64,000 nucleotides of DNA from positions 62,001 through 126,000 of the forward strand of contig JARLGY010000018.1 of the NCBI GenBank assembly GCA_031292525.1, given 5' to 3'. The stretch is from Flavipsychrobacter sp. GTDB lineage: Bacteria; Bacteroidota; Bacteroidia; Chitinophagales; Chitinophagaceae. The notes below the pieces were generated by a model, which saw nothing but the letters and a program-made list of their open reading frames with translations, was not told the origin of the DNA and did no database searches. Shown here piece by piece: positions 43,507 through 61,620 of this stretch; the stretch's first letter is position 1, and each line of letters opens with the position of its first letter. The translations under genes were made by a program, and so were the position numbers.

Positions 43507-45492
43507 ATGGATAAGATCAATTACATACTTATTTCTATAGGGCTATTCTTTATAGGTTTACAATGTAAAGCCCAGGTGATCACAACCGCTGCAGTTGGTA
43601 TGGCTAACCCCTATGGTATTGCTACCGACGATAGTGGTAATGTATATATTTGCGACTATGGTACGGCATGCGTAAAGAAATTAAATAAAGCAGGTATTGT
43701 TACCACATTCGCAGGCAACGGCATATTTGCATATTCAGGCGATGGCGGTCCGGCAACATCTGCAAGTATATTTGAAGTGGTTTCAGTAGCGGTCGATAAG
43801 CATCATAATGTATACATAGCAGATGGCCAGAGTGCTGTAATACGTAAAGTGAATCCGTCTGGAATCATCAGCACATTTGCCGGTACCGGTACAAGGGGGC
43901 ATTCTGGTGATGGAGGTCCTGCCACAGCTGCAAAACTAAACTTCCCGCAGGGGGTGGCTGTAGATGATGTGGGTAACGTGTATGTTGCTGACGGTTTCAA
44001 TTACGACGTTCGCAAAATTGATACGACTGGCATTATCACAACTTTTGCTGGTACAGGCACTTCAGGCTTTACCGCCGATGGAGCTGTAGCCACCATGGCT
44101 AAGTTGACTATGCCGACAGGCGTGGCCACAGACCATAATGGTAACGTTTACATTGCAGATGTTTCCATGGTCCGCAGGGTAAATGCAATAGGTATTCTTA
44201 CTACAGTCGCTGGCAATGACTCATCCGGTTACAGTGGCGATGGCGGGCCTGCAACATCCGCATTATTATCGTACGTAGAGGGCTTAACTATAGATGCCGC
44301 TGGCAATATATTTATTGCAGACGAGGATAACAATGTCATACGAAAGGTAGATAATAGCGGCATCATCACTACTGTAGCAGGTAATTCGCTGAATGCTAGT
44401 CTTGCATCAGGACAGGGCAGCTACACAGGTGATGGTGGCCTGGCAGATTCTGCCGGCTTTAATACGCCGGTAAGCGTTGCTGTCGACTCTGTCGGGAACT
44501 TGTACATATCCGATCGTTTTAATAATGCAATCCGTAAGGTATCAGCTATATCAGGCACCACACACATTTGTTTAGGCGATACCACAAAATTCAGTGTTCC
44601 TTTTACTGGCGGCATATGGTCCTCATCCGTCCCCGGTGTAGCCCGCGTTAATACAACAGGGGTGGTAACGGGCGTTGTCGCAGGCACTGCGGCCATATAT
44701 TATTCTTTAGGTGCCGACACTGCTGCTACTTCTGTGTTTGTAAATGCAACACCTTCTGCAGGTGTAATAACCGGCACAGACAGCACCTGTTTCGGAACCA
44801 TAACTTTCCTTACAGATACAATGCCGGGAGGCATGTGGTCTCTAACTAACACCAATGCAAATATATTGGGCAATAAGGTCACCCCTGTGCTACCGGGAAG
44901 AGATACTGCCATATATAAGACACATTACACTTGCGGCACCGCTACTGCACAATTCCCATTAACGTTTATTAGCCCAGATGCCGGAACTATTACGGGAGCA
45001 AGGGCCGTATGTGCTGGTGATACTATTGTTTTTTCAGATACTGCATTAGGTGGCATATGGAGTTTAGCCGATACTACAATTGCCAATATGATATCCCCTG
45101 GGGTCGTTAAAGCAATAGCTCCTGGCCTTAACGATATCGAATATACAGTTACCACGGCCCTTCCGGGCTGTGAAGCATTTGCGAGTATTTATTTTAATAT
45201 AGATTCCGCCTCACATTGCGCAGCTACAGGTTTACAAAATACTTCCATAGTCTATCACAAACTGCTTATATACCCCAATCCGGCAGGCAATAGCGTAACA
45301 ATTACGTCAGGCGTTAGTATCACTTCCCTGCACATTATAGATTGCCTTGGCACAACTATATACGCTCAAACTACTTCCGGTCAAAAAAATATCATTATTA
45401 ATACCATCAAACTTACAAGCGGCATCTACTTCGTAACCTGCGAAACTGATTTGGGAGACCGGATATGCGAAAAACTGATCATTCAGCATTAG
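43507..45492 (+). CDS. NHL-repeat secreted protein with T9SS type A sorting domain
   Basis: A 661-residue protein. The signal peptide ends near CKAQ (residue 22). About six NHL-type beta-propeller blades follow (~25-350) with recurrent FAGTGTxGxSGDGGPATxA and VAVDxxGNVYIADxxNxxIRKV units. Next come Ig-like (BIG2-type) modules, including GVARVNTTGVVTGVVAGTAAIYY, and a type A T9SS sorting domain (IYPNPAGNSVTI...; ends KLIIQH). It is predicted to be exported to the surface, where the propeller may bind protein or glycan. No catalytic residues evident. It stands alone between radA and the minus-strand SIMPL gene. Confidence 0.9.
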   Translation: MDKINYILISIGLFFIGLQCKAQVITTAAVGMANPYGIATDDSGNVYICDYGTACVKKLNKAGIVTTFAGNGIFAYSGDGGPATSASIFEVVSVAVDKHHNVYIADGQSAVIRKVNPSGIISTFAGTGTRGHSGDGGPATAAKLNFPQGVAVDDVGNVYVADGFNYDVRKIDTTGIITTFAGTGTSGFTADGAVATMAKLTMPTGVATDHNGNVYIADVSMVRRVNAIGILTTVAGNDSSGYSGDGGPATSALLSYVEGLTIDAAGNIFIADEDNNVIRKVDNSGIITTVAGNSLNASLASGQGSYTGDGGLADSAGFNTPVSVAVDSVGNLYISDRFNNAIRKVSAISGTTHICLGDTTKFSVPFTGGIWSSSVPGVARVNTTGVVTGVVAGTAAIYYSLGADTAATSVFVNATPSAGVITGTDSTCFGTITFLTDTMPGGMWSLTNTNANILGNKVTPVLPGRDTAIYKTHYTCGTATAQFPLTFISPDAGTITGARAVCAGDTIVFSDTALGGIWSLADTTIANMISPGVVKAIAPGLNDIEYTVTTALPGCEAFASIYFNIDSASHCAATGLQNTSIVYHKLLIYPNPAGNSVTITSGVSITSLHIIDCLGTTIYAQTTSGQKNIIINTIKLTSGIYFVTCETDLGDRICEKLIIQH

Positions 45493-46325: not shown

Positions 46326-46480
46326 AAGTATTAAATTATACTAAAGCTAATGAGCAAATGTCGAATAATGAAATAAAAGGCAATACCTGATACATTTCAG
46401 GAAATCACACAAGGCATGTAATTAGTTGCATACCGTAGGTTCTATAACCTCATTGCATAACATGTGTGTTGTCCCTGTTG

Positions 46481-46555
46481 CTGTGGAACATTCCACCACG
46501 TGGAACTGTGCATATCATCTTTGGGAAAACATACTCCGCCAACCGTATCTTGCAT
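46481..46555 (+). repeat. Dispersed repeat, copy A
   Basis: A 75-base stretch, aligned by eye at about 79% identity to the reverse complement of 60876-60949. Conserved blocks are CTGTGGAACA, GTGGAAC.GTGCATA and GTATCTTGCAT. It contains nested palindromes (GTGGAACATTCCAC, CACGTG). It lies in the 597-base gap upstream of a T9SS cargo gene, otherwise without coding signal. Confidence 0.7.
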
Positions 46556-46603
46556 TCGGCCAAGTTTATTATCTTATGCAATCATACACTTTCACCGCAA
46601 TGC

Positions 46604-46748
46604 AAAATGCCCGGCATCAGGCATAATCGGGCACAATTCAGGCATTTATTTTTATTGACTTATAACAACATCAGCTACAGCAGCGTATTTAAGCAATTTA
46701 TAAGTCTAAATAATGCCTTCTTTCAATTTTCAAATATCGTCGGGCATT
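46604..46748. repeat. Variant TGCCC palindromes next to copy A
   Basis: AAAATGCCCGG (46604-46614) faces GGCATTT (46641-46647), with an internal TGCCCG/CGGGCA stem (46608-46613 with 46628-46633). A further AATGCC/GGCATT pair lies at 46712-46748. TTCACCGCAAT occurs twice in the stretch. The order resembles the AAAATGTCC/GGACATTTT arrays near copy B but with C for T and G for A. Confidence 0.5.
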
Positions 46749-46922: not shown

Positions 46923-49604
46923 ATGCGGATCCTAAAATTTACTCTTTCAGTTTTTATTATTTTTTGTTGCATCACAGTTCATGCACAAACCTGGTTAAAA
47001 GACTACCTGTACAGTCCCAACAACTATAGCTACAACCCAACAACATCTGTCTTTAATGATACCCATGGTGGGCTAATAGCTACACAGTATTACAATGGTG
47101 TCGATTCTGTTTACCAGAATATCTTGTTACGAATAAATTACAAAGGCGATTCCATATGGTCCAAAGTCGTGCCCGATACCGAAACGGTATATTCAATTGC
47201 AAACCTTACTAATGGCGACTATATAGTTGGGAAATATGTGGGCTCCTTTGCTGTATTTGGCACCCAAACCTACATCATAGATCACCTCGATACCAATGGA
47301 AATCTTCTGAATGAACGGGTAATCAACTCCTCCTTTTTTAACGCATCTCCCGGTGTCTATAACAACGGGGCCACACAGTGCCCTATGATAGTAGCAGACC
47401 ACCACAACCACTACTATGTACTGTACTATATGGACACTACCTATACAACCCAGCATTGGGATCCCATTAACCAGGTTTATTTTACTGTTGATTCTTCTTA
47501 TAACCGCACCTACATCGATAAATACAATTCCGCAAATGCCTTAATATGGAGAAAGATTGACGTGATACCGGCAGATATTACCAGCGCCGGCGTCCACTTC
47601 GATAATAGCCGCATACAAGCAGGTAGCGCTATATTAAACGAGAAAGAAGGCTTGTTGTATGGCAGGTTTGTGGACAAGCCTGATGACGATGACTCGCTTC
47701 ATTACTACCTTGAAAAAAGAGATTCAACAGGGGTTGTGCTATGGAGTAAAAATGCAAAAACTTATTTCTCTCATGCCGATACAGGATTGTATTATTGGCC
47801 CTATATAAATGCAACTAACGATTCCAATTACTTGCTCTTGTTCCAGGTTCTAAATGATAGCGCCCACAATTTTGCACCCATAAAACAAACATTAGCAAAG
47901 CTATATAGTAATGGTAACCTCATAAAGTCGGTAACTGTAGATAGCGCCTTTGGAGTTACGGGTGTATTAGCCAGCAGCATGACTATGGGCATACAAACAT
48001 CCGCAGGGAATTATATGTTCCCCGCTACTATGATATATGATACGCTTGGCGACCAAACATCTGGTATAAACATTTATGACAAGAATCTGAACTTGCTTTC
48101 ATTTACACCTGAACCAATACCTTATTATAACGGAGCAGCGCTGGTAGCTAATAAACAGGGTGGGGCTTTCTGTGCCTATGCCCCCATAATTAATTATTAC
48201 GCCAACTTCACTACCGTATGCAATTTTGATAGTTCTTTTAATGCTAATCCAGTCAATTTATCAGGTAAGATAATTCAGGATAATAACAACAATTGTCTTA
48301 CAGATAATGGCGATTATAAGATACAAAACAGCATCGTTACCGTCACCGACCAGTATAATACGTCCTGGTACGGCATTACAGATACAGGCGGTAATTACAA
48401 AGTAAATCTGCCCGACAATACCTACAATCTAACGCATAGCTTAACCGGCTACAAACAAAATGAATGTCCATCAAGCGGTACGCTTAACTATACATTCTCT
48501 GGTTACAACACCACAACAAACGCTAACTTCTACGATAAATTGACACCTAATATTAAAGACATTGCGGTGTCTATGTATTCCGATTGTTTTGTACCCGGGT
48601 ATGGTAGCAACATTTATGTCATGGTAAGTAATGTAGGCACCACAACTGCTTCTGTAACACTCACTGTCGATCTTGACCCTTCTGTTACGTACGTTTCTTC
48701 ATCACCCTCACCCGTCTTGGTTAGTGGGAATACACTTACATACAACATTAGCAACCTGGATGTAGACAGCATAGAAAATATCCTGATCAGCACCTCAACC
48801 AGCACAAGCGTATCGTTAGGTACTGCGCTTAACTTTTCAGCAACTGCACCGTTGCTGAACGATTATGCTCCTGCAAATAATGCTGATACCCTGCTTACCC
48901 AGGTGGTTGGCTCTTTCGATCCTAATGGCAAAACCGTGAACAGGCCATACAAAATGATTCCTGGCAAGGAGATGATATATACAGTCAATTTCCAGAACAC
49001 AGGTACTTATCCGGCCAGGAATATTGTGGTGGTTGATACGCTTTCACCATTACTCGATATGTCTACGTTCAGAATGATAAGCGGCAGTCCTAAACTCCCG
49101 GTTGTAACGAGCAAGGATGGTAGAAGATTGATCTTTAAATTCAACAATATAAACCTACCTGATAAGAAATCAAACGAACCCGCAAGCCATGGCAAGTTTG
49201 TCTACGCTATAAGCGCTAAAAAAACATTATCCCTGGGTGATACCATAAATAATACGGCATTCATTTTCTTCGATTTTAATTCTGCCGTTGTTACAAATAC
49301 TGCAACCAATGTTATAAGCAAGAAAAATGGTTTAGCGGTTCCAGCTATGGTGCGTGAACAGGATGTTCAGGTATACCCCAATCCTACCTCCGGTAACATA
49401 AACATTATTGTTCCTGCAACTGCAAATGATTGGATAGTATCTGTAGTAGATATCGCAGGCCGAGAAATATACAGCCAGGCGGAAGTGGGTGGCCGTACTT
49501 TGCTTAGCTGCTATGTAAAAGCGGTTCCGGGTATTTACTTTGTAAAGATTGCCAATGCTGCAACGGGCGAGGTAACCGTTAAAAAGTTGCTTATTAAGAA
49601 TTAA
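46923..49604 (+). CDS. Large T9SS type A cargo with SdrD-like and DUF11-type domains
   Basis: An 893-residue protein. The signal peptide (1-22) ends at VHAQ. Residues ~25-435 form a repetitive beta-rich region resembling a propeller (repeated LDTNGN.., DSTGVVLWSK, LYSNGNL units). At ~440-530 is a Cna-B/SdrD-like module (GKIIQDNNNNCLTDNGDYKIQNSIV). Two DUF11/CARDB-like domains follow, the second beginning FDPNGKTVNRPYKMIPGKEMIYTVNFQNTG and typical of Bacteroidota secreted proteins. The final ~80 residues are a type A T9SS sorting domain (VYPNPTSGNINI...; ends KKLLIKN). It is predicted surface-exposed or released. Binding partner unknown. Confidence 0.88.
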   Translation: MRILKFTLSVFIIFCCITVHAQTWLKDYLYSPNNYSYNPTTSVFNDTHGGLIATQYYNGVDSVYQNILLRINYKGDSIWSKVVPDTETVYSIANLTNGDYIVGKYVGSFAVFGTQTYIIDHLDTNGNLLNERVINSSFFNASPGVYNNGATQCPMIVADHHNHYYVLYYMDTTYTTQHWDPINQVYFTVDSSYNRTYIDKYNSANALIWRKIDVIPADITSAGVHFDNSRIQAGSAILNEKEGLLYGRFVDKPDDDDSLHYYLEKRDSTGVVLWSKNAKTYFSHADTGLYYWPYINATNDSNYLLLFQVLNDSAHNFAPIKQTLAKLYSNGNLIKSVTVDSAFGVTGVLASSMTMGIQTSAGNYMFPATMIYDTLGDQTSGINIYDKNLNLLSFTPEPIPYYNGAALVANKQGGAFCAYAPIINYYANFTTVCNFDSSFNANPVNLSGKIIQDNNNNCLTDNGDYKIQNSIVTVTDQYNTSWYGITDTGGNYKVNLPDNTYNLTHSLTGYKQNECPSSGTLNYTFSGYNTTTNANFYDKLTPNIKDIAVSMYSDCFVPGYGSNIYVMVSNVGTTTASVTLTVDLDPSVTYVSSSPSPVLVSGNTLTYNISNLDVDSIENILISTSTSTSVSLGTALNFSATAPLLNDYAPANNADTLLTQVVGSFDPNGKTVNRPYKMIPGKEMIYTVNFQNTGTYPARNIVVVDTLSPLLDMSTFRMISGSPKLPVVTSKDGRRLIFKFNNINLPDKKSNEPASHGKFVYAISAKKTLSLGDTINNTAFIFFDFNSAVVTNTATNVISKKNGLAVPAMVREQDVQVYPNPTSGNINIIVPATANDWIVSVVDIAGREIYSQAEVGGRTLLSCYVKAVPGIYFVKIANAATGEVTVKKLLIKN

Positions 49605-49749: not shown

Positions 49750-49874
49750 AAATGTCCTAAACGGACATTTTAAGACATTTTGTTTTTAAGCAATAAGAGC
49801 CCCAGCAAATGCATTGTAAAATATATCGTGCTCAAAATGTCCGTTTTATATTTTAAGATCCTACAGACATTTTG
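49750..49874. repeat. AAAATGTCCGTT motif cluster I
   Basis: At least five copies of a 12-bp motif in both orientations: AAATGTCC at 49750 facing AACGGACATTTT at 49760 with a 2-base gap; GACATTTT at 49774; AAAATGTCCGTT at 49834; GACATTTT at 49866. They lie in the 403-base gap between convergent genes, where no promoter is needed. Nothing else is recognisable in this gap. Confidence 0.75.
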
Positions 49875-50007
49875 CAAAAAGGGCCACCACAATTACAATT
49901 AAGGACACAAATATTCAATTACTCAATGTTGTAAAAAAGCTAAACTAGTATCTCCAACATAGAGCATAACTCTTGCTTTATGAAAGTTCTGAAACAGTAG
50001 CACTGGG

Positions 50008-60288: not shown

Positions 60289-60438
60289 TACTAAAAAGTA
60301 ATACCCACCAACATAGACGAATGGAATGCATCAAATGTTAGTATCTGATAAAGATAATTTATTTATGGGTGTGGTTTCATGATGTTTTATGTTAATTTAA
60401 TCTGTTAAACGGCTTAGTTTTTAGTCGCTATTTTACCT

Positions 60439-60836
60439 AAAATGTCTGTTGGATGTTTAATGGTACAAAGGACATTTTAGTATTTTTTTTCTTAAAAAGG
60501 CGTACCACAGCAGTTATGAGCTAAAAATAAAATATCTTAAAATGTCCGTTGATAGGTATTGTCATTGGGATGTGAAGAAATTATTGCGAGGTGGTTTGTC
60601 TGAACTATAATTTTTTGATTAAAGTGATTTTTGAGCCCGTGAAACGTGATACCACAAAAACCAGAGATCAGAGGGGGTATGCTGGGTTGGTACTAAAATG
60701 TCTATTTTCCTTCGGAATGTCTTAAAATGTCCGTTGGAGAACATTTTAATTTTTGGTAAAACCTTTTACCGGTTAGGGTTTCAGTGCATCCACCTTTTAA
60801 ATGTCTGTTGGAATATTTAAATGGAACGGACATTTT
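60439..60836. repeat. AAAATGTCCGTT motif cluster II
   Basis: At least eight copies of the motif in both orientations within ~400 bases. Plus orientation starts: 60439, 60539, 60695 (partial), 60724 and 60799, several extended to AAAATGTCNGTTGGA. Reverse copies: 60470, 60740 (partial) and 60825. Pairs 60439/60470 and 60799/60825 form inverted repeats. It lies in the 720-base gap upstream of the ECF sigma gene; no coding signal is visible there. Confidence 0.78.
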
Positions 60837-60875
60837 GTGTATGATACCCGGGGTACCAGAGGAAACACAACCACG

Positions 60876-60949
60876 ATGCAAGATACTATTGGTGGAACTT
60901 GTTTACCAAAGAAGTTATGCACCGTTCCACGGTAGGGAGTGTTCCACAG
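60876..60949 (-). repeat. Dispersed repeat, copy B
   Basis: Reverse complement of the copy A sequence, at about 79% identity over 75 columns by eye, 14 kb away and inverted. Adjacent to motif cluster II: in both copies ATCATACAC and an AAAATG(T/C)CCG motif follow the conserved block. Confidence 0.7.
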
Positions 60950-61008
60950 GAAAACCCTGATAATATTAAATATTTACCTATATTAAAGTTAAATGCATCG
61001 TATCCGGA

Positions 61009-61620
61009 TCATTGTTTTATAAGGCACCATGTTGTCATGCAACGTATATTGCTGACGTTAGTGGTTTTGATGGGATCGGACAGAATACCGTTGAGTTGAT
61101 GTGTATAATTGAGCAGGAACTGTTCATTTACCAAGAAGCGTTCTGAACCATCGGGTAGCAGGTACCTGCCGTTGCCAAGTGGCTGCACCAAGTTTTCTAT
61201 TCCAATATCGGACGCCAACCTTGCAAACAGAAAACCACCGGGTTTTAATATGCGCCAAATACTGCGCAGCATTTTATCGAAGTGGGCTTCATTGTTTGCA
61301 AAGTGCAGTACTGCGCTGCATATTGCCAGATGGAACGACTGATCTGCAAATGGTATGTCTTCTACATTTGCCACTTTAAAGTTGGCGACGGGATTGCCCG
61401 GCGCGAGACGCAGCGATAAGCTTTTTACTTCTTCAACAGCAGATGCATCTCTATCAATACCATATACTTCGTACCCGTTTTGCAGGAAGTACACTATATT
61501 TCTGCCACCGCCACAACCTATATCAATCACTTTTTTACAATCGTTGTACCTGCCTTTCAACAATTGATCGAACAGGTAGATATCTATGTTGCCAAAAGTT
61601 TCTTGTAAAGTTTGGTTCAT
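61009..61620 (-). CDS. SAM-dependent class I methyltransferase
   Basis: A 203-residue Rossmann methyltransferase. Motif I is VIDIGCGGGRNIVYFLQNG with the acidic YGIDRD end of strand 2. Motif II/post I is VANVEDIPFADQSFHLAICSAVLHFANN, followed by MLRSIWRILKPGGFLFARLA. It resembles the small-molecule or SAM-binding-only group (Methyltransf_11/25). Substrate unknown. It stands alone between two repeat-laden or structured gaps. Confidence 0.85.
   Translation of the reverse strand: MNQTLQETFGNIDIYLFDQLLKGRYNDCKKVIDIGCGGGRNIVYFLQNGYEVYGIDRDASAVEEVKSLSLRLAPGNPVANFKVANVEDIPFADQSFHLAICSAVLHFANNEAHFDKMLRSIWRILKPGGFLFARLASDIGIENLVQPLGNGRYLLPDGSERFLVNEQFLLNYTHQLNGILSDPIKTTNVSNIRCMTTWCLIKQ

Follow-up and report, generated by a model that had tools for sequence, protein, structure and literature searches.

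A window of 64,000 nucleotides (the whole stretch of DNA that was analysed) contains a block of 75 bases at 46481-46555 which resembles the reverse complement of 60876-60949, and the question arises what kind of sequence has been repeated here. As an answer we propose, with a probability of about 0.55, that the repeat forms the promoter-bearing end of a dispersed and putatively non-coding transcription unit present in many copies, in which a promoter of the rRNA type is followed by arrays of phased sites.

The two blocks are homologous repeat copies, with a BLAST identity of 78.7%. When 46381-46700 was aligned locally, with gaps, to the reverse complement of 60741-61040, the score was 44, compared to a mean of 13.2 (sd 2.2, maximum 22) for 500 dinucleotide-shuffled pairs. 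The initial annotation had also noticed two words common to both places, and both were recovered: ATCATACAC stands 3' of each block (46581-46589, and 60837-60845 on the reverse strand), and it is followed in both copies by AAAATG(T/C)CCG, in the form of AAAATGCCCG or AAAATGTCCG. The following features were assigned in the window; R2 denotes a model of the downstream modules, which is described below.

46483..46506, plus strand: two GTGGAAC boxes of copy 1 (46483-46489 and 46500-46506), 17 bp apart, read from the sequence
46507..46553, plus strand: putative promoter core of copy 1, with TGTGCATATC..., TTTG at 46520-46523 and TATCTTGC at 46546-46553, from the sequence and the TANNTT spacing
46605..46748, plus strand: module of copy 1 with the word CGGGCA/AGGCA (46628-46633 and 46640-46645, 11 bp apart); last site at 46741-46748
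60924..60947, minus strand: two GTGGAAC boxes of copy 2 (60941-60947 and 60924-60930), from the sequence
60878..60923, minus strand: putative promoter core of copy 2, with CTTTGG at 60906-60911 and TATCTTGC at 60878-60885, from the sequence and the TANNTT spacing
60437..60836, minus strand: module region of copy 2 with the words GGACATTTT/AGACATTTT in both orientations, as direct and inverted repeats
49750..49875, plus strand: module of the same kind with repeats and an R2 match (49758-49808, E 0.0013), without a block within 1.2 kb

By BLAST, the module of copy 1 resembles those of the copies C14b, C4a and C16a, and the module region of copy 2 shows a type similarity of 61-81% to those of C24b, C24c, C60b, C45 and C23b. 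The gene faced by copy 1 encodes a T9SS-type protein (DUF7619, Por_Secre_tail), and the product of the gene faced by copy 2 is a sigma factor containing regions 2 and 4. Copy 1 is flanked on both sides by T9SS-sorted secreted proteins, an NHL/teneurin-like propeller and the DUF7619 protein (43507-45492 and 46923-49604 of the window), and a SIMPL-domain gene is located between these two.

Copies are by no means restricted to this pair. When the genome of the window (G000; 4.44 Mb in 75 contigs) was searched at the DNA level, 29 and 39 matches were obtained, which gave 39 distinct block copies. From 36 of these a model of the sequence alone, R1, was constructed; it matched G000 55 times at E <= 0.01 (60 times at E <= 1), a few matches being split or confined to the core, and thus the possibility that there were no further copies is removed. 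When 59 genomes, G000 included, were searched with R1, three matched: G000, a sister genome of the same genus (G001, 69% complete; 35 matches) and one genome of the same family, whose 28 matches were to the downstream part of the model only. Among 294 family genomes, which were drawn evenly and with stricter filters, 13 matched at E <= 0.001 (8 of 101 genera), some with one or two weak matches only; 11 genomes besides G000 and G001 carry the core form. An exact-pattern scan of the genome collection detected 14 stretches in five assemblies, namely the Bacteroidetes MAGs SZAS-30, SZAS-26, UBA1947 and BWMinControl_Nextera91_MAG4, and Taibaiella sp. MGR_bin411 (Taibaiella belongs to the Chitinophagaceae). 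The exact core pattern had no match in viral contigs; since, in addition, copy 2 was without a phage match and copy 1 without a plasmid match, an origin from phages or plasmids was rejected. In the window no Rfam family reached its gathering score, and over 15 loci there was one sub-threshold match at E <= 1.

The block itself is conserved in an uneven manner. In 129 of 134 copies from eight genomes, TGTGSATATCTTYTTTTGG is followed by TANNTT at a distance of 37-38 bases from the GTG (1.7 expected with shuffled letters). When the 134 copies were aligned on this GTG, the ATAT letters were kept in 92-98% and the run TTT(T)GG in 78-96%, whereas the twelve spacer letters after the run were kept in 33-55%, despite the fixed distance of TANNTT. 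Because of this pattern, with conserved ATAT and TTT(T)GG, a fixed TANNTT and a free spacer, a promoter is the most plausible interpretation of the block. Promoters of Bacteroidota consist of TTTG and TANNTTTG about 20 bp apart, and the block agrees with this arrangement through its TANNTT geometry. The last letters of its -7 word are mostly TTGC, where the textbook word has TTTG, and it would thus be a variant. TAnnTTTG is named as the Bacteroidetes promoter in PMC10309648. Judged from its letters, the 75-base block is therefore best regarded as a putative promoter of the Bacteroidota type which is similar to rRNA promoters. Two boxes of the form [GA]TG[GA]AAC precede it in 59 of the 75 copies of G000 and G001, 17 bp apart in 56 of the 59; in the relatives examined this position is usually occupied by a run of A.

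The resemblance to rRNA promoters extends into the leader. In five relatives, GYTCTTTGA was found not more than 300 bases downstream in 26 of 58 copies (15/20, 4/14, 0/5, 7/14 and 0/5 in the single genomes), with none in antisense and about 0.06 expected. The rRNA leaders of three family genomes contain the same word in three of six cases and GATCTTTGA in the other three, and these boxA words of the family are preceded by a promoter with the arrangement TTTGG-spacer-TANNTTTGC. The promoter and leader of Chitinophagaceae rRNA operons are like the element in having TTTGG, a spacer, TANNTT(T)GC and then GTTCTTTGA, the latter in part of the element copies of relatives; they differ from it in that no rRNA follows the element, which is present in tens of copies and has TGTGSATAT, the GTGGAAC boxes (in this genus) and the downstream phased modules in addition. 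The exact GYTCTTTGA was absent from all 75 copies of G000 and G001, and a loose form occurred in 12 of the 75, with about 2.5 expected; one subfamily of the window's genus has AGTTCTTAAAAAT and CTGTAAACC at the boxA position. The boxA-like signal would appear, as far as the words themselves tell, to be clear in the relatives and decayed in the genus of the window. A 16S rRNA match was not found anywhere in G000, which is probably due to an assembly gap. According to PMC12691694, NusB and S10 are recruited by boxA, which protects rRNA operons against Rho; the same paper counts CRISPR arrays among those that benefit from boxA, with reference to Stringer et al. 2020.

Downstream of the block, in intergenic DNA, modules were recognized by eye, between one and three per copy and each about 130-150 bp long. 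Their layout comprises one arm, a pair of direct words at a spacing of 10 or 11 bp, a core (CATATNAGCTACCACAAANCATTTCAGCC as consensus) which ends in TTTCAG, and further arms. The word is common to both arms of one module and different from locus to locus: GGACATTTT, GGACAG and CGGGCA occur in the window's genome, and GGAAATAAC, GGAAGTTTG, CCGGAAA, TGGGGCA, CGGCAGAAA, GTGAAAC and others in relatives. With six G000 copies excluded beforehand, exact 6-mers recurred at a lag of 10 or 11 in 100 of 128 loci, compared to 19 expected; 277 and 146 pairs were counted at lags 10 and 11, respectively, versus about 14 per lag in shuffled sequences. The lag table is also raised at 19-22 and 30 bp, as expected of two and three helical turns.

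Model R2 was trained on modules found downstream of blocks, and 17 of its 54 matches in G000 are part of the model. Forty-seven of the 54 lie downstream of a block at a distance of up to 1.2 kb and share its strand, whereas no match has the opposite strand and seven are without a block; 19 of the 55 G000 blocks, both copies of the window included, are without an R2 match, and the modules of the two window copies were assigned by eye. At 60 loci of other genomes, 27 of 29 matches were on the strand of the promoter, and the two opposite ones (L122, L185) are weak; in G092, the GGAAGTTTG modules seem, by eye, to be inverted. The initial annotation had joined the block and the AAAATG(T/C)CCG-type cluster into a single element of about 120-130 bp. 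Their fixed order and orientation bear out the joining; the proposed size is too small, since the unit measures about 300-700 bp by eye, and the two parts differ in kind, the block having promoter-type conservation and the motif cluster being a separate module of phased repeats with a 10-11-bp period.

On transcription, antitermination, protein binding and the purpose of the unit we infer the following. The block would start an untranslated transcript, and in this genus the pair of GTGGAAC sequences would represent activator-like boxes upstream of the promoter. A boxA-like antitermination signal in the leader could then allow the polymerase to run through one to three modules, each consisting of short sites on one helix face, 10-11 bp apart, around the conserved core ending in TTTCAG. 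These sites would most likely be bound by members of a diversified family of DNA-binding proteins, and the unit would act as a transcribed site array, i.e., an anchor, a decoy or a transposition end, and not as the promoter of the next gene. More tentatively, and with less than even confidence, the elements could constitute a new class of chromosomal elements, in which rRNA-type, antiterminated and untranslated transcription proceeds through helically phased words that are renewed from locus to locus; this would imply a diversifying set of DNA-binding proteins, so far undescribed in bacteria, that serve in defence, in transposition or in anchoring the chromosome. Provided that the units are transcribed, tens of ribosomal-type promoters yielding neither rRNA nor protein would be present in some Bacteroidota, with a bearing on the economy of RNA polymerase and on genome layout. 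The locus-specific phased words would point to a searchable set of undescribed DNA-binding proteins.

A structured regulatory RNA is an alternative which we consider possible, although rather unlikely. The words would in this case be base-pairing arms, with local hairpins in competition with pairings across the core, and the phasing on DNA would be a by-product. The arms indeed change together between words, eight of ten modules from G000 and G001 have folding z values of -3 or below, and a long untranslated RNA would suit the function of boxA as described in PMC12691694. However, only one of eight modules from the relative G305, which consist of direct repeats, reached this z value, and the idea of an RNA fold as a general principle is weakened by the other seven, which fold unremarkably. 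Furthermore, 12 of 13 perfect-pattern hairpins have a TGTCY arm which differs from its partner by a wobble or a mismatch, and a lag of 10-11 bp has no reason in single-stranded RNA. Since phasing is general and strong hairpins are not, sites on double-stranded DNA are favoured, with RNA as the less likely alternative.

Non-autonomous mobile elements similar to MITEs would be another explanation, which is unlikely in our opinion. Here the phased words would bind related transposases, with one word per subfamily, and the promoter would be carried along. Subfamilies of the body are about 20% apart, and some modules stand alone, as is the case at 49750..49875 in the window. One pair of loci, L141 of G001 and C65e of G000, has both flanks orthologous and encloses elements of different subfamilies, as if one had been replaced. 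On the other hand, inspection by eye of 39 aligned copies showed neither terminal inverted repeats nor, at the left edge of the block, a target-site duplication (the right end being undefined), and neither an autonomous parent nor a clean empty site was found. The promoter geometry, which is fixed across genera, suggests selection.

It appears quite improbable that the left edge with its GTGGAAC boxes serves for recombination or insertion and that the elements mark the borders where foreign or variable DNA enters. In favour of this idea are the flanks in the sister genome, where homology between G001 and G000 commonly ends near the left edge of the block. The downstream flank is common to a G000 element locus in 14 of 20 G001 element loci; two of the 14 are situated at a G000 contig end, and among the other 12, which can be judged, two share at least 900 bp upstream. 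Eight of 12 upstream pieces of G001 were without a match in G000. In the converse test the downstream pieces of G000 had a strong match in G001 in 7 of 23 cases and the upstream pieces in 1 of 24, this single one being a repeated sequence. Insertions of an IS110 element in the boxes (see below) would also fit a border. These figures have to be read with the 69% completeness of G001; moreover, two further upstream pieces of G000 match weakly, and among the four upstream pieces of G001 with a match, one is repetitive, and the remaining three agree with the same locus, in two cases across contig ends. Relatives keep the promoter without the boxes, and intergenic DNA upstream may simply turn over fast.

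A regulon, in which the blocks would be normal promoters under common regulation, each serving the gene that follows by way of a long leader, is very improbable. In its favour are the conserved upstream boxes and the orientation of genes in relatives: of 32 judged copies from five genomes, 24 have a co-oriented next gene (39 copies in all, with 24 co-oriented, 8 opposed and 7 without a next gene), as have 12 of 19 from the sister (7 opposed, and one more without a gene). In G000, however, 29 next genes are co-oriented and 24 opposed, two blocks have none, and the median distance is 561 bases; several downstream genes appear, by eye, to own a TANNTTTG promoter past the modules. A plain promoter function for the next gene thus fails in G000 by orientation, and is less unlikely for some copies in relatives. 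None of the 55 G000 blocks lies inside an ORF of at least 150 aa; with a lax rule for relatives (at least 100 aa, open ends allowed, 1-kb pieces), 2 of 20 blocks in the sister and 6 of 39 in the other relatives overlap an ORF. The chance that the block is decayed coding sequence is practically negligible: LWNxPxRGTVHxxFGK, from which a coding origin had been considered initially, can be read in an open frame in both window copies, but length changes break the frame in C23b and C24a, and the 109-aa ORF over copy 1 is without a Pfam match.

The transcription unit proposed here was also compared with known systems. We know of none which combines an rRNA leader, an array expressed by means of boxA, REP- or MITE-like repetition and phased sites, and a description of such an element was not found in the open-licence literature. 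OmpR-type boxes and ParR-parC are regulator or partition sites with phased direct repeats; they are like the modules in having direct repeats of 10-11 bp on one helix face and two clusters around a core, and unlike them in that the word of the element varies by locus. CRISPR arrays with boxA antitermination would share with the element an untranslated array, which is reported to be protected by a complex of this kind (PMC12691694), but fixed-length repeat-spacer units were not seen by eye in the element, whose repeats are shorter and irregular, with words of 6-10 bases at a lag of 10-11 bp. REP, BIME and REPIN sequences with their RAYT proteins are also intergenic and multicopy with palindromic arms; REPs, however, are not known to have a promoter. 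The nearest systems share one feature each with the element. It is read as a new family, a kind of non-coding element, occurring in some Bacteroidota, that has apparently not been described so far.

Two of three Y1_Tnp genes in G000 are located within 700 bp of a block (C14:4145-4336, locus L060, and C5:22816-23085, locus L156). Membership in the RAYT/REP group was rejected, since the hairpins on either side of these two block-adjacent RAYT-type genes have a different sequence. Directly upstream of several copies, for example L141, L149, C4b, C65b and the end of C60, there are short hairpins which fall into a small number of recurring types, such as CTTGTGCT..GCAAG and TCGTTTATAACGAG; these are probably REPs.

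Identical sequences, 130-134 bases in length, recur at contig ends of G000, where they abut pieces of the boxes. They belong to an insertion sequence of the IS110 family, which has inserted at least four times into GTGGAAC boxes:

C45 start, C30 start and C60 end: IS110 junctions at CGTGGA
C24 start, C5 start, C23 end and C26 end: IS110 junctions at GGAAC
L257:7-1337: complete IS110 copy, 358-aa protein with matches to DEDD_Tnp_IS110 and Transposase_20

The non-coding end of this IS110 folds with a z of -2.9 (1 of 200 shuffled sequences was as good) into a stem whose loop has ACTGTTC on its 5' and CCGTGGA on its 3' side; in the reading direction of the insertion sequence, these fit the flipped box ACTGTTCCACGG. 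The loop spells the box, as would be expected of a target guide in a bridge RNA. IS110 elements such as IS621 target REPs, as reported in PMC11208160; the likeness consists in a multicopy intergenic repeat as IS110 target, and the difference in the target itself, which is here a box within a promoter-like block. The boxes are a natural multicopy target of this IS110 with its putative guide loop, and a clean case for guide-target pairing. Six 12-mers in the 64-kb window are within two mismatches of ACTGTTCCACGG, four of them being the boxes of copies 1 and 2; among the 120 boxes of the 75 copies, 87 lie within this limit, partly by construction, as the boxes were picked by GTGRAAC.
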